Positions 14,713-26,104 of a stretch of 32,255 bases of DNA are shown one piece after another (the stretch's first letter is position 1; each line of letters begins with the position of its first letter). The notes below the pieces were generated by a model. That model searched no databases and was not told where the DNA came from. It saw nothing but the letters and a program-made list of their open reading frames with translations. This DNA is from a virus. Where the stretch lies: IMG/VR virus record IMGVR_UViG_3300017989_000302, positions 1 through 32,255 of that record. One strand, written 5' to 3'. A program made the translations under genes and the position numbers.

Positions 14713-15651
14713 ATGACGGTTAATGATAATAGATACTACTTGACATTCGATGGAAACAACGATTATATCGAATTTGACTCGAATGAAAGTGTAGCAGGTC
14801 TTTCTACATTCACAATTTCATTATGGGCTCGACCGGATACGTTCGAATCAACTGACACTATTTGGAACGAATCATACACAACTTACAAACAAAATACGTT
14901 AACTGGAACTGATTGGACAACAAGGTCGAACAATACAGGGACAGCATACACATTAGCAACTCCAACGATAGGGACTGGTGACTGGCATCACATTGCATTT
15001 GTATACGACGCAGTAAACAATGAAAAAAGCATTTATGTCGACGGTTCAAGAGAGGCATATACAAGTCAAGCATTAAGCGCATTATCTTCAGGACGAGATA
15101 AGTTGCGTGTTGGATATCCTCTTTCAGGAGATACTTATTACGATGGTCGAATCGATGATATCAAAATATACAATACTGCATTAAGCGCATCAGACATCGA
15201 TAGTTTGGCAAATAATTCAAGACCTCAAACAACACCATTATATCATTGGAAATGCAATGAACGTACAGGAACATCATTGAATAATGCAATGACTTCAAAT
15301 GATAGCACATTAGTTGGAGCAACTTGGGGTTATGAGTTAAGCCCGATTGGGTATAACACTGGTCATAACTTTAGTATTGGTCTATCATTTATTGTTCCTG
15401 CAGTTACAAAGGACTGTTTGTACGACCAAATCAAATATGCAGGAAGGATTGGAACGATTTCAACAGCATTAGGACAAATCGAACACTATGATACTACGAC
15501 AGATGATTCAAATACATTGTCTGTAGAGTTATCAAATTGTCCAGAAAAACGTGACACGTCATTATCGATATACGTCGAAAACTATTCAATACAACATGTG
15601 AGTAGTATTTCAGACACATACATTATCGATATTTCAGGATATACGAGTTGA
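14713..15651 (+). CDS. LamG/concanavalin-like lectin domain protein
   Basis: 312 residues. Residues about 8-165 form a laminin-G-like jelly roll: YLTFDGNNDYIEF, FTISLWARPD, GDWHHIAFVYDAVNNEKSIYVDG, GRIDDIKIYNTALSASDI, a clear signature of the LamG/concanavalin superfamily. Then LYHWKCNERTGTSLNNAMTSND, a common tail to such domains, and a C-terminal beta domain of about 100 residues without a known match. No signal peptide. Such proteins are usually glycan-binding tail fibres. GAGAGGG precedes the ATG. The next gene starts 4 bases after its stop, so it may be co-expressed with the first giant adhesin. Confidence 0.8.
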   Translation: MTVNDNRYYLTFDGNNDYIEFDSNESVAGLSTFTISLWARPDTFESTDTIWNESYTTYKQNTLTGTDWTTRSNNTGTAYTLATPTIGTGDWHHIAFVYDAVNNEKSIYVDGSREAYTSQALSALSSGRDKLRVGYPLSGDTYYDGRIDDIKIYNTALSASDIDSLANNSRPQTTPLYHWKCNERTGTSLNNAMTSNDSTLVGATWGYELSPIGYNTGHNFSIGLSFIVPAVTKDCLYDQIKYAGRIGTISTALGQIEHYDTTTDDSNTLSVELSNCPEKRDTSLSIYVENYSIQHVSSISDTYIIDISGYTS

Positions 15652-15655
15652 TATT

Positions 15656-18600
15656 ATGTATTTAGAATTAACAATCATAGCAATCGCAATTGTAGTTTTG
15701 TTCTATTACAGAAATGAGATTTATTCATTCTTCAAAACACATAAGAAAACATTAGTTGCATTATTAGCAACAGGAAGCGTAATGAGTGGTGGCATTATAC
15801 TAATGGATGATGGTGAATTGCCTCCAGTTGGTGCGACAACTTATTATGTCGATTATACTGATGGCAGCGATTCTGACCCAGGGACAATGGCAGAACCATT
15901 TAAGACACTTTCATATGCTTGTACAATGTTGAGTGCTGGAGATACATTACGTGTTAATGGAGATACTTATCCGAATACACATATTACAATAACACAATTA
16001 GATGAAGGTACAGCAGGAAATCCTATAACAATCATGGGTAATGGCACTGGAGAAGCAATCATAGACGGCGATAATCAAATCCCATTCGAACTTAATTGGA
16101 TGTCACATTTAATCTTTGATAATTTAACTATTCGCGATTCAAACAGCGAACTATTATTGTTTAGATATGATACTGATAACATCACAATTAAGAATTGCAA
16201 ATTACAAGATTCTGGAGATTCAGCAGTTTATTTCTATGAATTAAGTACTTACGATATCAGAGATATCAGTATTGAAAATTGTACAATCAACAATACATGT
16301 AGTTGGCCAAATGGCGAATCTGCAGCTGGTGGTGCAATATATCTTCGAGATACTGAAGAATTTTCAGTTGAGAACAATACAATCTACAAATGTGGTCGTA
16401 ACTGCATATTTTTAAATGATGGTTGCGATGATGGTGTAGTTAAAGATAATTATATCAACACGACAAATAATAATACTGAATACACTGATAATCTTGCGAT
16501 TTATATGTACGTAATTGATAACGTAGATATGGATAATATTACATGTTACGATAATACTGTATGGGGTAATGGTAGTGCAGGATTTGCAACGATTGGCGGA
16601 GATACATCAATTGTTTCGAACATAACGATGTATAACAATGTATTGAATATGACAGAAAGCGGTAGAGGATATGTCATTTGGTCTTATGCTGGCGAGACTC
16701 CAGTATATAACGACATTGAATTTTACAGCAATACAGTTTATACAGTAGAGAATCCAGCGATTAAGCTTGATTGTAACGGAGATTTCTTTACAGATTTAAT
16801 AATTGCAAATAATGCATGCAGCACATTTGAGTCGTATTATGTAATGCAATTTTCGCAATCAAATTTGTCTGATATGACATTATCACATAATTCATTTTAT
16901 AGGCGTGATGGCGGTGGCGTTTATGTTGGGTGGCATTCAGATTCGACGACAACACGAGGTACAAGTGCAGTAATAACTGACCAATTGTTTACAAGTGCAC
17001 CAACTGGTGATTTCTCATTAGGTTCAGGTTCACCTTGTATTGATGCAGGTTCAGCGACATATGCGCCAGCAGTAGATTTTGACGGAGTAACAAGACCACA
17101 ACAAACAGCTGATGACATAGGAGCATTCGAAAAAGAAGGTTCAGAATATGTTGAATTAGATTCGTTTTCATTAGATGGCGAGACTACAGCAAACTGGGAT
17201 AGAGATAATAATGATGTTCAGATAGACGTTTCATTTACTAGTGAGTATACAACTGATTTATACTTTACATACAACAAAGGTTCTTCAGCAAGAACACCAA
17301 CGACATCAGACTATGATGCAAAGATAACTAGTGCGTCAAATCAAACTGACTATGATTTAGATTGGACTGCGACAGCAGGATGGGTAGAATACGACGGAAC
17401 TATTTATGTTCGTTGTATCGCACATGCAAATTCAGAATATAGCAGTTATATAGAAGCAACATTATCTGGTGGCATCGATAGTACTGGACCAACATTTAGT
17501 TTGCTTACAGAAATTGCAGATACTGATAGTTATGGAGACGGATATAATCCTAATTCGGGTTATTATGACGATGGTTCATACTTAGCTTCGTTTAGTGGTT
17601 GCACAGATTCGACATCTGGAATAAACTACTATATGATAAAGAGTAACGAGTATGGTTCATATGGTTCTGCAGATGAAGATGGAGGACTTGTTGGTTGTTC
17701 AATAAGTGTCGGCACGAACAACATATATTATAAGATTGTCGATAACGCAGGAAATGAAGCAACTGGAGATTCAACAGTTAATGTGTTTGGTGGAACAGGT
17801 AATCCCACAAACTTCTTAATTAATGTCACAGGTAATGTTGGCGGATTTGCAAGTTCTGACCCGTCATATATTTCAGATGCAACTAGCATTGATAGCGGAA
17901 CGTTATATTTGAATACTGGAGAGACAAGTCAATCGTGGGGTATTACAGTCGACGAAACATCTGGCGATTGGTCGTCTGGTGGTGCTTGGAAAGTAGTATT
18001 TGAAGCTGGTTGGGATGGAGCAGAAACGTCAGATACATCTTCACCATACGAAAGTGCTTCATATACAAGCGATACTGGAGCTGAAGCAGATATTACAATT
18101 GATATCGTAAATAATTGTGGTGGTGTTCAACAGATTGTGTTAACAACGACTGAAGACATACTTGGCCCAGACGCTCCAACTAACGTCGAATTAAGACCTG
18201 ATTTCTATGATAAGAGTGGCGAAGTTGACAATGATTTAGAAATATATTGTACGTGGACTGATGGCACAGATGGTGATAGTGGATTATATGATTCATCATT
18301 TGGAATGAATGATACAGCTCCAACTGCATTAGCAGGTAATGACGCAAAAGCAACAGACAACGATGACGAGCCTGGCGCGACAAGATATGGCTATGTTCGT
18401 TCTGTAGATTATGTCGGAAATTGGGGTTCAACTGCAAATGACACAATAACAATTGATTATGGAGCACCTCAGATTTCAACCCCCTATCCTTCGGATGGAG
18501 AAACATGGATATTTACACAACCTACATGTAATATTACTGTAACTGATAAAGATGTCGATACTATGTCGACTACATTTGCTTCAAATTATACTGGAGCATG

Positions 18601-19315
18601 GGTTAATTATCAAACGAATAGTTCTAACAATGATACGTTAGAATGGGACTTTACTGGCGCAACTGAAGAATTAACGACATATTATTGGAGAGTATATTGC
18701 GATGATGGCACATATAATGTTTCAATAGATTACGAATTTACAACTAAACCATCTACATGGTCATATAAGTTTCAAACAAATGGCTATGACTACTTTGTAT
18801 GGCGTGGCGACAATGGTTCTGCATACGACGTCGCAGAATCGATAGATGGATTTGGAACAGACGACGATTCTAATTCAGAAGAACATATCGCAATATGGAA
18901 TGCGTCAGCAACACCGTATCCATTATGGTCGACTTATTATGGTGATGGAACTGGAGTCAATTTTACGATAACATCATTTATGGTCGTTCGTACTTATTTA
19001 ACTGGTTCTGATAATCCTCAAATCTACGATGAGACACATGCTACATGGGAAGGCGATTCATCTGTAATATTACAAGATAATGCAGACAATTTAGGATATA
19101 ACTTTACAGCATACTTGACACAAAGTTCTCAAACATTGTCAGAATTAATTGAAAATGATTTTAGTACGTCATTAGCTGATAATTATTGGATTGCAGTATG
19201 GACAGGAACTACGTGGCAATATTATATTGAAGGATTTTATGATTCGGGATATACACTTACTCAATTTGATGTCGTAATGTCGAAAGTATCAAAAACAATA
19301 ACTTGGACGTATTAG
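15656..19315 (+). CDS. Giant membrane-anchored adhesin 1 (beta-helix plus Ig-like domains)
   Basis: 1219 residues. Two hydrophobic helices (about 2-18 and 34-51) flank a basic loop RNEIYSFFKTHKK, placing the rest outside the cell. Residues about 61-495 look like a right-handed beta-helix: YYVDYTDGSDSDPGTMAEPFKTL, repeated NITIKNCKL / ISIENCTI / FSVENNTI turns and the closing SPCIDAG...DFDGVTRPQ...DIGAFE typical of pectate-lyase-like and chondroitinase-like repeats. About 500-1030 holds four or five Ig/FN3-like units (TGPTFSL, GPDAPTNVELR, GAPQISTPYPSDGETW). About 1036-1219 is a duplicated C-terminal domain shared with adhesin 2. Many NxS/T sequons. No catalytic residues identified. It is unusual to find membrane anchors in a tail-fibre region. 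Confidence 0.75.
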   Translation: MYLELTIIAIAIVVLFYYRNEIYSFFKTHKKTLVALLATGSVMSGGIILMDDGELPPVGATTYYVDYTDGSDSDPGTMAEPFKTLSYACTMLSAGDTLRVNGDTYPNTHITITQLDEGTAGNPITIMGNGTGEAIIDGDNQIPFELNWMSHLIFDNLTIRDSNSELLLFRYDTDNITIKNCKLQDSGDSAVYFYELSTYDIRDISIENCTINNTCSWPNGESAAGGAIYLRDTEEFSVENNTIYKCGRNCIFLNDGCDDGVVKDNYINTTNNNTEYTDNLAIYMYVIDNVDMDNITCYDNTVWGNGSAGFATIGGDTSIVSNITMYNNVLNMTESGRGYVIWSYAGETPVYNDIEFYSNTVYTVENPAIKLDCNGDFFTDLIIANNACSTFESYYVMQFSQSNLSDMTLSHNSFYRRDGGGVYVGWHSDSTTTRGTSAVITDQLFTSAPTGDFSLGSGSPCIDAGSATYAPAVDFDGVTRPQQTADDIGAFEKEGSEYVELDSFSLDGETTANWDRDNNDVQIDVSFTSEYTTDLYFTYNKGSSARTPTTSDYDAKITSASNQTDYDLDWTATAGWVEYDGTIYVRCIAHANSEYSSYIEATLSGGIDSTGPTFSLLTEIADTDSYGDGYNPNSGYYDDGSYLASFSGCTDSTSGINYYMIKSNEYGSYGSADEDGGLVGCSISVGTNNIYYKIVDNAGNEATGDSTVNVFGGTGNPTNFLINVTGNVGGFASSDPSYISDATSIDSGTLYLNTGETSQSWGITVDETSGDWSSGGAWKVVFEAGWDGAETSDTSSPYESASYTSDTGAEADITIDIVNNCGGVQQIVLTTTEDILGPDAPTNVELRPDFYDKSGEVDNDLEIYCTWTDGTDGDSGLYDSSFGMNDTAPTALAGNDAKATDNDDEPGATRYGYVRSVDYVGNWGSTANDTITIDYGAPQISTPYPSDGETWIFTQPTCNITVTDKDVDTMSTTFASNYTGAWVNYQTNSSNNDTLEWDFTGATEELTTYYWRVYCDDGTYNVSIDYEFTTKPSTWSYKFQTNGYDYFVWRGDNGSAYDVAESIDGFGTDDDSNSEEHIAIWNASATPYPLWSTYYGDGTGVNFTITSFMVVRTYLTGSDNPQIYDETHATWEGDSSVILQDNADNLGYNFTAYLTQSSQTLSELIENDFSTSLADNYWIAVWTGTTWQYYIEGFYDSGYTLTQFDVVMSKVSKTITWTY

Positions 19316-20738: not shown

Positions 20739-20783
20739 ACGTTGCTCTACTTCAGTAGAAATGGCGTAGAACAGGGTGATTTC

Positions 20784-23700
20784 ATGGAACTGTGGGTTAT
20801 ATTAATCATATTAGGACTAGTTGCTTTTGGTGGTTTAGTCACAATTGCGTATTGGGACGTACTTAAAAAGCATGTCAAAAAGATAGTTGCTGTCATGGTA
20901 GCTGGTCTTACAGTAGGTGGTGCAGCAATATTTATTCCAGAAGATATAGACCCTCCAGCTAGTGAAACAACTTTCTATACATATACAGACGATTTGGGAC
21001 AACGAATTATAATTGGTAACGCTTCAACTAATTTCATGAAGTTTTATCACGATTATGCTGGTGACCCGACTACTGTATTTGCTATCGATTTTCCAGATAG
21101 TGACGACGCATACGAACAATCAAGTCTGAGAATTACTGCGTCTAACGAAAGTAACGTTAAATATATTTGGGATATACAAAATAAGACTGGTGTAGCATAT
21201 TCAATTGATACACAGTTAGAATTTAGTATCGAAGTTCCAACACAACCATTAGCACAGTTGACATATGAATTTCCAGTGAAATTACTTGGCTTACATCAAA
21301 CGTCAACAGACAACAGAACATACATTTATGTTAATGGTACAGACGAACATATATTAACAATATATCAACCTATCGTAATTGATTATGAAGGAGTTTCAGA
21401 AGAATGTACGATGTCTATCACTGACGGTAATTTAACAATAGGTGTATCAAATAATTTTATTAAGACGGCGACGTTTCCAATAGTTATCGACCCAATTATG
21501 TCATTTTCTGATTCATTAATTGATTCATCATTTATGATAGTTGAAAGTGTATTCATTGCAGATGTTGATGGAGATGGCGATAATGATGTCATTGCAGGTT
21601 GTTTTGATAACAACGATTTAAGATACTATAACAACACTGATGGCAAAGGAGGTTCGTGGTCTGAATCTGTTATAGATGGTACAGCATCATATATTGAAGA
21701 TATGGATGTATTTGATATAAATGAAGATGGATATCCAGATATTGTAGTTTGTCGTCCTACTGCAGACGATGTTTACTATTACGAAAATGATGGCGATTCT
21801 ACATTTACGAGAAATACACTGAATGCGTCATTAGATGATACAGATATGGTTCGAGTTGTCGACATTGACGGAGATAATGATTACGATATTGTAACATCGT
21901 CAGACGTGACAAATGCTGATTTTGTTTTGTTCTTAAATGACGGTTCTGAATCATGGACGCAAAAGAACTACGCATTAACTGGTATCGCTAGTGGTGAAGG
22001 ATGCGATGACGTTGATTTTTATGACATTGATGGAGACGACGATTTAGACGTTTTCTTATGTGAAATAACTGGCGAAGACGTCTTGTGGTTAGAAAATAAT
22101 GGAAGTGCGACTAACCCAGGATTTACACAACATAACATTGACACATCTGCAGACAATCCATCGACATGCAAAATCGTAGACATCGATGGCGACGGATATA
22201 TGGACGTATTATGTGGTACGACTGAACCAAGTGGTTATGTCGACTGTTATTACGAGAATGACGGAACTCCTCTTGATGGCGGATGGACGCAAACTGATTG
22301 GCTTGGTGGACGGTACTTTACAACGACATATTGGGTATTTGACTACAACGATGATGGCAATGACGACATACTTGGTTGTGGTTCAATAATGGAAGACGTG
22401 TCGTTATTTCTTGGTGATGGAAATGGTAATTGGGAACAACAAGTTACTGTATATCGCTATGAAGACGCGTATTCATGTAACTATGGAGACATTGATGGAG
22501 ACGGCGATTATGATTTCGTTGTCGGCGGTGGACAAATATCATGGTCAGAAAATACTAATGACGCAAACTATTCGACATTTTCAAATCCAAGCCCAGCGAA
22601 TCTTAGTTCAAATCAATCGACATCATTTACATACAATATTACAGTAACAAATAAATTGGGAAATTCAAGTACTGTAGATTTCTACACATCGACAGATGGT
22701 TCAAGTTGGACACATCAACAAACAAATAATACGATATTAAATGAAAGCGTCGAAGTTGATTTAAGTAGTCTAACAGAAGATACAAGATACTATATTAAAA
22801 CGACAGCAAATACAACACTTGGATTGAACTCTACTAATATTGGTTACTTTTCAACAACATCACATAGATTAACATATTTCAACGATACGTTCGATTCTAA
22901 TTATCATATTACTGATTCGCATGATATGTCATGGGAAGAAAACTATTATAACACATCTGTAATGGGTGACGGTTATTGTAATTTCTGGTATCATATGTAC
23001 GGTGCTGCATGTGGTGACTTAGAATTACTTGTTCAAGAATCAGATAGTTCATGGACAATATTATGGTCTGAAGAAGGCAATCAAGGAAATCAGTGGAATA
23101 ACGCGAACGTTTCTTTAGAAAACTATACTGGCGCTTCAACTAAACTTAGATTTAGACATTGGAATGCTACAGGATTTACTGGAGACGTTGCAATTGATAA
23201 TGTCACGATTGGACATGTTGGCACAATTCTTGATACTGAAAGTTTTGAAACTTCATTAGGTGATTGGTCACAAGTTTCAAGTACACGTGAAGCTGATTGG
23301 ACAAGAGACCAAAGTGGAACTCCAAGTTCGAATACTGGTCCTTCATCAGGACAAGCAGACTATTATTATATGTTTACTGAAACTAGTGGCGAATATGGAG
23401 TTGGTATATTCGAATTAGAAATTACAGTTGATTTATCTGGTTCAACTACTGGTGTCGAAGACGGTTATTTAATTTCAGACATTATTTATTATGGTACTGG
23501 CGAAGAATGGGGTAATTTCTATGCACAAGTCAACAACACAGCAGGAACTGTATTCTCATTAATTGACCCATTAACTGACTATACAATATTGGGAAGTTTA
23601 GATGGTGATGGAGATGATGTTAGTTCTGTAACAAATTCAAGCTTACGAATTAGATGTAATTTCACACAAGCTGCAGTATTACAAAGTTGGAACATAACAT

Positions 23701-24332
23701 ATACTGACACAATTACATACGAAACAGAAATACGAAAAGATGGAGTCGATTATTTAGTATGGCTTGCTGAGGACGAAAACTTAGCTATTATTGCTTCTGC
23801 AAGTCATGACGCATTTGACGAATTTGATTTTGATGAATCTGGTGAATATATAGCAGTCTGGAATACGTCATACGATTGGGACGAATATTGGTATGTCGAT
23901 TCGTGTTGGGTACAATATCATCCTCATAATTATTCGGGACCTTCGCCATTAGTCAAGACATTTGATATTCTCAAAGTTTATCTAAAGGATACAGGAACTG
24001 GCACTGTATATATGGTTGAAGACGACACTATTGATTATGACGCAAACAGTAATACAACAATACCGAATAATTCAACGACTGGCAAAGGGTTGCATTTTTG
24101 CGGATGGAGAGGAACTAGTTCAACGTCTACAGCATTAATCAATAGTACTGTTGGTTTAGGATGGACGTCTGGTTATTCTGAAATTGTTTCATTGTGGGAT
24201 TATACATTGCATTTATGGTATCCATATTTTGCAGGATTTCCACATTCAACAAGTAAAACTGTCGAACAATGGGATGTGTTAAGATTTAGTATCGGTTCAA
24301 CAACTAGATATTTAGATACGAGTGATTTCTAA
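20784..24332 (+). CDS. Giant membrane-anchored adhesin 2 (FG-GAP propeller, FN3, MAM)
   Basis: 1182 residues from the ATG at 20784; a TTG at 20742 is rejected because GGGTGAT lies between them. Two hydrophobic helices (about 3-23, 33-51) flank WDVLKKHVKK, as in adhesin 1. Residues 55-250 are a beta domain ending FPIVIDP. About 255-595 holds seven Ca-binding FG-GAP/VCBS motifs (DVDGDGDND, DINEDGYPD, DIDGDNDYD, DIDGDDDLD, DIDGDGYMD, DYNDDGNDD, DIDGDGDYD), one per blade, so a seven-bladed propeller. About 597-692 is FN3-like. About 700-870 carries MAM-type sequence in swapped order. About 978-1182 is the duplicated domain shared with adhesin 1. Likely an extracellular attachment protein; in the virion or on the cell is open. 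Confidence 0.78.
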   Translation: MELWVILIILGLVAFGGLVTIAYWDVLKKHVKKIVAVMVAGLTVGGAAIFIPEDIDPPASETTFYTYTDDLGQRIIIGNASTNFMKFYHDYAGDPTTVFAIDFPDSDDAYEQSSLRITASNESNVKYIWDIQNKTGVAYSIDTQLEFSIEVPTQPLAQLTYEFPVKLLGLHQTSTDNRTYIYVNGTDEHILTIYQPIVIDYEGVSEECTMSITDGNLTIGVSNNFIKTATFPIVIDPIMSFSDSLIDSSFMIVESVFIADVDGDGDNDVIAGCFDNNDLRYYNNTDGKGGSWSESVIDGTASYIEDMDVFDINEDGYPDIVVCRPTADDVYYYENDGDSTFTRNTLNASLDDTDMVRVVDIDGDNDYDIVTSSDVTNADFVLFLNDGSESWTQKNYALTGIASGEGCDDVDFYDIDGDDDLDVFLCEITGEDVLWLENNGSATNPGFTQHNIDTSADNPSTCKIVDIDGDGYMDVLCGTTEPSGYVDCYYENDGTPLDGGWTQTDWLGGRYFTTTYWVFDYNDDGNDDILGCGSIMEDVSLFLGDGNGNWEQQVTVYRYEDAYSCNYGDIDGDGDYDFVVGGGQISWSENTNDANYSTFSNPSPANLSSNQSTSFTYNITVTNKLGNSSTVDFYTSTDGSSWTHQQTNNTILNESVEVDLSSLTEDTRYYIKTTANTTLGLNSTNIGYFSTTSHRLTYFNDTFDSNYHITDSHDMSWEENYYNTSVMGDGYCNFWYHMYGAACGDLELLVQESDSSWTILWSEEGNQGNQWNNANVSLENYTGASTKLRFRHWNATGFTGDVAIDNVTIGHVGTILDTESFETSLGDWSQVSSTREADWTRDQSGTPSSNTGPSSGQADYYYMFTETSGEYGVGIFELEITVDLSGSTTGVEDGYLISDIIYYGTGEEWGNFYAQVNNTAGTVFSLIDPLTDYTILGSLDGDGDDVSSVTNSSLRIRCNFTQAAVLQSWNITYTDTITYETEIRKDGVDYLVWLAEDENLAIIASASHDAFDEFDFDESGEYIAVWNTSYDWDEYWYVDSCWVQYHPHNYSGPSPLVKTFDILKVYLKDTGTGTVYMVEDDTIDYDANSNTTIPNNSTTGKGLHFCGWRGTSSTSTALINSTVGLGWTSGYSEIVSLWDYTLHLWYPYFAGFPHSTSKTVEQWDVLRFSIGSTTRYLDTSDF

Positions 24333-26104
24333 TGGCAATCGAATCATTTTATGTATTTGGGATAGCAACAGACTCTGGTAGTAGTCCTATCACGACAACA
24401 TTAGTTAGAATATATGACGTAACTGCAGACTCTCATTACAATACAGCAACTGGCGCAAGTGGCAACTATTATACTGACATTGCAGATATTTCTGGCATTG
24501 AAGATGGCGACACTATTACAATATCAATTATTTCTGGAAACGAAGTTGCGTCTGATTCATTTACATTAAACATTCAACAACCATCAAAAAGAATCGATTT
24601 ACAAACATCACAATTCATATTAGAAGAAGACGTATTATCAGACGAAGAACATGACACAGATGTCGAAAAGGATATTTCATTATTATCAGAGTTATTATTA
24701 GAACATAACATTAACTTCGCGACAGATACAACAATATTAGACGAACTATTAACAGAACATAAATTATTCACTGATTTATCACGAACATTATTAGACGAAA
24801 TTCTAACAGAAAATCCAGCATATAATACATTAGCAAGAACATACTTATTGGAAATGCATATATTAAACATTATCAATAATAAAACTGATAGAACATTATT
24901 AGATGAAATCGTAACAGAGAATCCGCATTCATATTCATTACAAAAATCAATTGTCGAAGAAATATTATCAGACATTTCGTTAGATACTATCGCATCATTG
25001 TATAGGACACTCGAAGAGAATGTTGAATTAGAAGATACATTCATATTCAAATTTATAATGGAGATTGTCGAACAACTATTAATTGAGCATCTATCAATTT
25101 ATGGCACAGATAAATCATTAATTGACGAGATTGAAATTGAAGATACATTTACGTCAGACTCAACAAGACAACTAATTGAACAGATAATATTAGAACATTC
25201 TCATGATATTATCGCTACCTTATATAAAACCATTAGCGAAGATATTAAGTTATCAGAGCACCGCGTATCGGCGCTTAGTCGCAGTGTTATCGAGCAATTG
25301 TTATTAGAACATATTATCGATACTGCATACTATTCGCTAAATACAGAATCAATATTAATTGAAGATACTTTCGATTTAGATGCATTCATAATACAAGTTG
25401 AAGAACTATTATTACAAGACGACGTTGTTCAATCATTAGCAAGAACTATTACACAAACAATTTTAACGCAAGATATTAATCCTTTCGAACTATCAATTGA
25501 GAAAGTTGAAGATATTATTTTATATGATACAAGAACAACACATAAGATACATTCATTAACTGAACAATTATTAATACAGGAAACATTAGTTCGTGCAACA
25601 TATCAAATAATACGTGACTACATCATATCATCTGAAAATATTATCTCAGGAATTGAGACTTCATTATCTGATTCTTTAGTCGTTAATGGAGAAGACATAT
25701 ATAAAACTATCACTGAGTTCATTGAGTCAATCAAAATAAGTGATATGCAATGGACTTCATATACTGAGTTACTAATCGAAAGTATATTACTGGAAGACGT
25801 TAGAGAACACATCGGAACATTCTATCGTGAGTTTATCGAATCATTAGAACTTGAAGATTCGTTCAGTAATCGATTTCGAAACAAGTATTTAACATTAGTT
25901 GAAAGTTTAATATTGTCTGAAGTATCGTATGGCATCATATTGTCTATGGCAAATGCTATTCGATTACATGGTGATTTAAACAAAAGTACAACATTGTATG
26001 GATATGTAAATGAAACACATACTTTAACATCAGATTTAAATAAGACGTTACTAATGTTAGGAAGCATAAACAAAACAATACGATTAAGGAGAGACAAAAA
26101 ATGA
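24332..26104 (+). CDS. Repeat-fibre protein with beta-sandwich head, following adhesin 2
   Basis: 590 residues; ATG overlaps the adhesin 2 stop (TAATG). Residues 1-90 are a carboxypeptidase-regulatory-like beta-sandwich, similar to the protein after adhesin 1. Residues about 95-545 are roughly 20-residue degenerate repeats with the theme L-x-R-T-L-x-E-x-I-x-x-E-D (RTLLDEILTEN, RTLLDEIVTEN, YRTLEENVELED, YKTISEDIKLSE, FYREFIESLELED). The last 50 residues change to LNKTxxLxGxxN units (HGDLNKSTTLYGYVNETHTL). Almost no Cys or Trp. It looks like a fibrous stalk. A GC-rich element at 25259-25275 interrupts the AT-rich repeats. It overlaps the next gene by ATGA. Confidence 0.6.
   Translation: MAIESFYVFGIATDSGSSPITTTLVRIYDVTADSHYNTATGASGNYYTDIADISGIEDGDTITISIISGNEVASDSFTLNIQQPSKRIDLQTSQFILEEDVLSDEEHDTDVEKDISLLSELLLEHNINFATDTTILDELLTEHKLFTDLSRTLLDEILTENPAYNTLARTYLLEMHILNIINNKTDRTLLDEIVTENPHSYSLQKSIVEEILSDISLDTIASLYRTLEENVELEDTFIFKFIMEIVEQLLIEHLSIYGTDKSLIDEIEIEDTFTSDSTRQLIEQIILEHSHDIIATLYKTISEDIKLSEHRVSALSRSVIEQLLLEHIIDTAYYSLNTESILIEDTFDLDAFIIQVEELLLQDDVVQSLARTITQTILTQDINPFELSIEKVEDIILYDTRTTHKIHSLTEQLLIQETLVRATYQIIRDYIISSENIISGIETSLSDSLVVNGEDIYKTITEFIESIKISDMQWTSYTELLIESILLEDVREHIGTFYREFIESLELEDSFSNRFRNKYLTLVESLILSEVSYGIILSMANAIRLHGDLNKSTTLYGYVNETHTLTSDLNKTLLMLGSINKTIRLRRDKK
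24620..25960 (+). repeat. Degenerate ~60-base coding repeats (~20-residue units)
   Basis: More than 20 diverged units encode L-x-R-x-L-x-E-x-I-x-x-E-D type segments. Bases are strongly AT-biased with frequent ATTATTAGA/GAACAT words. Units are too diverged to be recent expansions. The same unit type is seen at 31990-32255 and at about 14030-14135. Confidence 0.6.
25259..25277 (+). repeat. GC-rich element, copy 3, inside a coding region
   Basis: CACCGCGTATCGGCGCTTA. It shares a 12-mer exactly with 14680-14691 and a 15-mer with one mismatch with 1749-1763. Here it is translated as HRVSALS within the repeat-fibre gene, with codons unlike the neighbours. Confidence 0.45.

Follow-up and report, generated by a model that had tools for sequence, protein, structure and literature searches.

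The locus examined here raises the question of how a viral protein comes to carry the two halves of a MAM-type domain in swapped order, the second half ahead of the first, and whether these pieces make up a single circularly permuted domain or belong to two truncated domains lying side by side. The window, that is, the whole stretch of DNA that was analysed, comprises 32,255 bases and is coextensive with the viral record; it had been called viral from its letters alone, and genes for a prohead protease, an HK97-type capsid, a tape measure and the tail bear this label out. In the MAM-bearing protein, the codon of residue n begins at window base 20742+3(n-1), and the parts of the protein are the following:

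20742..24332, plus strand: whole gene, 1196 aa from a TTG, frame open throughout
20784..20951, plus strand: N-terminal hydrophobic stretches, residues 15-70, as seen in the sequence
21561..22571, plus strand: FG-GAP repeat region, residues ~274-610 (PF13517, six stretches, E 5.3e-27; end approximate)
22578..22862, plus strand: putative FN3/Ig-like beta segment, residues ~613-707, judged from the sequence; Pfam gives no match
22932..23219, plus strand: MAM second half, first in the chain, residues 731-826 (PF00629 76-152; local profile 52-149; AF2)
23205..23240, plus strand: 12-residue joint between the HMM matches, residues 822-833, a predicted strand-turn-strand hairpin
23223..23393, plus strand: MAM first half, second in the chain, residues 828-884 (PF00629 2-52; local profile 1-71)
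23397..23711, plus strand: beta-rich segment of unknown family, residues 886-990, free of MAM profile signal (hhalign 0.7%, at the level of shuffles)
23715..24302, plus strand: C-terminal domain, residues 992-1187, common to the C-terminus of protein 15656-19315

The ATG at 20784 (Met15, MELWVILIILGL), 14 codons inside the TTG-started frame, would be the likelier start, as the hydrophobic N-terminus begins there, and the FG-GAP region is a probable beta-propeller. Residues 14-83 resemble residues 2-69, the N-terminus, of the neighbouring protein 15656-19315 (BLASTP, E 3e-5), and the C-terminal domain is 25% identical to the C-terminus of the same neighbour over 197 columns (BLASTP, E 4e-5). 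The two proteins have related N-terminal hydrophobic segments and C-terminal domains around different middles, a beta-helix in the neighbour and the FG-GAP/MAM region here, and can be likened to swappable display proteins.

All of the MAM motifs quoted in the original prediction were found within 22870-23400 in the order given there, and the family profile reads the same way, positions 76-152 of PF00629 coming ahead of positions 2-52. Scored alone with hmmscan, the second half (residues 747-823) matches positions 76-152 with 52.3 bits (E 7.6e-14), and the first half, from residue 834, matches positions 2-52 with 20.8 bits (E 3.6e-4); taken together (residues 682-1003), they reach 69.3 bits (E 4.3e-19), and the entire protein scores 63.7 bits, above the curated cut-off of 26.4 bits. 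A single contiguous PF00629 match in normal order is absent from the protein. A local MAM profile, built from the fetched viral and bacterial loci with the window left out, places residues 724-821 on model positions 52-149 (91.2 bits) and residues 834-903 on positions 1-71 (48.4 bits); it replaces an earlier version that included the window, in which the alignment of the first domain began at position 9 and that of the second ended at position 96. Similarly, hhalign assigns the second half to MAM positions 64-150 (99.8%) and the first half to positions 1-50 (98.6%). Since no MAM match was found in 14 control genomes and both halves score on the window-free profile, the match is not attributable to chance. 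By both HMMER and hhalign, the protein has one copy of each half, with the order swapped, and together the two span one entire domain. Its limits were refined to about residue 731 (base 22932) for the start of the second half and about residue 884 (base 23393) for the end of the first half, and the strand 'WEENYYNTS' of the second half lines up with 'AVIEYDIGS' and 'TIEYTLSG' of other viral MAMs. The domain contains only two cysteines, Cys746 and Cys757, with none in the first half, and the two disulfide bonds of animal MAM domains are absent.

The joint between the two matches, at 12 residues, is the shortest of all the second-half-to-first-half gaps compared: gaps in true MAM-MAM tandems measure at least 15 residues by half-domain models, and the linkers of close tandems, which are common in bacteria, span 14-28 residues by full-domain matches. 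In the AF2 model the joint forms a hairpin, with DSSP strands at model positions 125-136 and 139-144, and such a strand-turn-strand connection would be the expected way of linking the old termini in a permutant.

Structure prediction, which had been proposed as a check, was run on residues 690-1000 with an alignment of 27 tandem-derived rows in second-half/linker/first-half register, an input leaning toward this pairing, and gave a single folded unit at model positions 44-195 (protein residues 733-884), with the remainder below 50 pLDDT and the tails unfolded. A mixed-fragment alignment was dropped, as MAFFT had stacked the two halves. The pLDDT is 85-95 in the second half and 53-79 in the first; the check therefore favours one unit, with moderate confidence in the first half and with an input alignment biased in its favour. 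Foldseek searches with the model matched MAMs and immune inhibitor A2, and the latter was also the best structural match in VIA-align (Z 10.7, rmsd 2.2, model 45-172). Circularly permuted glucanases were aligned by VIA-align over model positions 44-198 (129-132 residues, Z 6.7-7.8), with 1cpn, 1cpm, 1mve and 1zm1 covering positions 44-197 (129-130 residues, Z 6.8-7.8), and normal MAMs (5l73, 8yt7 and 8a1f) over about 44-141, the second half only (94-96 residues, Z 6.8-6.9), where Z values below 8 may reflect common sandwich similarity. Provided that the aligner keeps to chain order, which the ranges suggest, this is the alignment pattern expected of a permuted jelly roll. A fold search of BFVD gave nothing at E<=0.001.

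Taken together, the complementary pieces, the undetectable missing halves, the short joint and the one-unit model matching permuted jelly rolls argue that residues ~731-884 probably make up one MAM jelly roll in circularly permuted form. The original prediction had left the choice between a circular permutation and two truncated domains; the former is now favoured, at a level short of proof. In the latter case, two adjacent, half-diverged jelly rolls would be present, residues 700-745 being a shortened first half and residues 886-990 a diverged second half, an arrangement that we regard as unlikely. It is true that residues 834-990 are about the length of a MAM domain, that an alignment of 'GYLISDIIYYGTGEEWGNFYAQV' with the FWYHMYG..GTL region can be forced, and that the model overlap at positions 52-71 means that one more beta4-like strand (FELEITVDLSG) follows the first half, as if a second domain continued, which speaks against the permutation. 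Nevertheless, residues 700-745 and 886-1000 contain no profile signal for partner halves (hhalign 0.2-0.8%, the same as shuffles), and an AF2 run on residues 826-989, supplied with 31 normal full-length MAM rows, still yielded a mean pLDDT of 59.1, with none at 90 or above and 44-69 in the downstream part. The resulting model does align to MAMs (Z up to 8.8, rmsd 4.2, 135 residues), but some MAM-like shape is to be expected from an all-MAM input alignment, and hence this model weakens the two-domain reading, which in addition leaves the complementarity and the short joint unexplained.

Two further explanations carry far less weight. Tail adhesins are often oligomeric and a half on its own would be an incomplete sandwich, so that, within an oligomer of the tail or surface protein, two chains might complete each other, one supplying the second half and the other the first; such a domain swap is very improbable, given that a 12-residue hairpin joint favours closure within the chain. 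Slimmer still is the chance of an assembly artefact or of a decaying, foldless domain remnant. The gene is known from one metagenomic contig, and no other contig containing it was found, but its 1,196 codons are open, key residues are retained in both halves, and the unique flanks on either side would require two mis-joins. The junction itself shows neither repeats nor a break in composition while the frame stays open, which makes a simple assembly chimera unlikely.

In the permuted jelly roll, the chain would open, at MAM position ~52-56, with the strand that in ordinary MAMs comes after the 'Y.Y.E.S' loop, continue through the FWYHMYG...GDVAIDNV half, pass through the hairpin of ~12 residues that would fuse the two original termini, C to N, and close with the SFE..W..TGP..YYMFTETSG half. 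Such an arrangement may have come from a bacterial-type MAM-MAM tandem that kept the second half of its first domain, the linker and the first half of its second domain, while the outer halves were lost; a tandem ancestry is likely, as far as can be judged from the sequences. The permutation would alter the attachment points of the neighbouring domains, and the protein may well have a surface-exposed, host- or glycan-contacting (adhesion) role.

Loci for comparison were collected by profile-guided scans, which fetched 44 viral and 80 bacterial loci and then a few more viral ones. MAM proteins were found by tblastn on Bacteroidota plasmids, e.g., in Persicobacter, where the first half shows 61% identity to that of the window protein, the highest value among normal MAMs. 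Five viral proteins (L042, L043, L056, L057 and L142) resemble the window protein in being viral and in their MAM halves, with 41-59% identity in the first half and 35-40% in the second, but differ from it in having these halves in normal order. The beta-rich segment at 886-990 was compared by hhalign with the beta domain trailing three of these viral MAMs (L042, L056 and L057), and a correspondence was unsupported. Among 149 frames with MAM halves from all loci, 137 are strictly first-then-second, possibly repeated, and six are second-then-first, namely the window and its own copies (three) and the viral contigs L143, L145 and L146; the other six hold single halves or are broken by frame or contig. 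No homologue cut at the same site as the window MAM was found among the loci compared, a point against the permutation, and in 296 and 199 genomes from the phyla of the flavobacterial and Phycisphaerae loci, respectively, no swapped MAM was found, only normal or one-sided partial ones.

The contigs L143, L145 and L146 are related to Synechococcus phage S-CBS2, which provides a second swapped case. The MAM-type domains concerned lie as follows:

L143, 3084-3668: swapped MAM-type domain
L145, 860-1447: swapped MAM-type domain
L146, 3915-4499: swapped MAM-type domain
L144, 3917-4510: swapped MAM-type domain of Synechococcus phage S-CBS2 gp053

In the three contigs, MAM positions 101-149 are followed by positions 13-92, again complementary pieces. 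The phage protein gp053 is 40% identical to that of L143 over 98% of the query, although its first-half part gives no score on its own. In gp053, the swapped region lies close to the protein N-terminus and precedes a Gly-rich tail, leaving little room for missing halves. The annotation of gp053 reads 'PE_PGRS family protein' only. As in the window, the MAM-type halves of these tailed-virus proteins are swapped; the cut, however, falls at MAM position ~92-101, against ~52-56 in the window protein, and the differing cut sites indicate that these were probably separate events. A swapped MAM looks like a rare yet recurring remodelling of a binding module. We tentatively suggest, as a possibility somewhat short of an even chance, that permutation of the MAM jelly roll has two or more independent origins in tailed viruses, at different loops, and that it represents a general route to re-mounting a binding domain in surface proteins.

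The MAM domain is a jelly roll that, in animals, has two disulfides, and its role is apparently adhesive; it contains a structural cation site, occupied by sodium in the MAM of meprin beta (PMC9848320). The window protein shares with the PF00629 family (meprin, neuropilin, RPTP mu and the bacterial tandems L059, L065 and L080) the signatures of both halves and a score above the gathering level, and is predicted to adopt a similar sandwich, but differs in its swapped halves, its cysteine-free first half and its short joint between the old termini. The InhA-like MAM (PF20773; immune inhibitor A2, 4yu5) likewise aligns past the second half, beyond the normal MAM end, and a weak PF20773 profile match (119-175) spans the window joint; unlike the window protein, this MAM sits in a peptidase. 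The permuted jelly-roll 1,3-1,4-beta-glucanases (1mve, a natural permutant, and 1cpn, an engineered one) and 2xhh, the permutation entry for a calcium-dependent CBM, are permuted beta-sandwiches whose chain order is sequential with the window model, whereas they are enzymes or carbohydrate-binding modules, not MAMs, and their likeness is structural. In the open literature searched, there was no report of a circularly permuted MAM, which is no proof of novelty, and no paper joining MAM, phage and tail fiber; the sole co-occurrence of MAM and circular permutation concerns Ig and C2 folds (PMC12051499). If real, the permutation means that the MAM chain can be opened at either of two loops, lends support to permutation through duplication, starting from tandem MAMs of the bacterial type, makes tailed viruses a further setting of MAM remodelling, and warns that domain searches list permuted modules as mere fragments.

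With regard to the virus itself, all nine matches of the window capsid protein in the phage collection are haloarchaeal tailed viruses (23-28% identity), and the MAM-bearing protein contains 34 N-glycosylation sequons, compared with a mean of 14.8 in shuffles (maximum 24). Both the capsid matches and the sequon excess fit an archaeal host and fall short of proving it, and such a host is supported for this uncultured tailed virus from its sequence. Close relatives of the MAM region were found neither in viral contigs nor in genome contigs or phages, and the protein N-terminus as query gave no relatives either; in the kin-virus contigs (L003-L009) the gene was not recovered, and the two tested contained no MAM. 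Elsewhere in the window, gene 14713-15648, located by the tail genes, encodes a Laminin-G/concanavalin-like lectin domain (PF13385, E 1.7e-23), and an imperfect repeat with a 54-base period lies at 24729-24949, inside gene 24332-26104, in three copies, two of which are 69-73% identical to the third.
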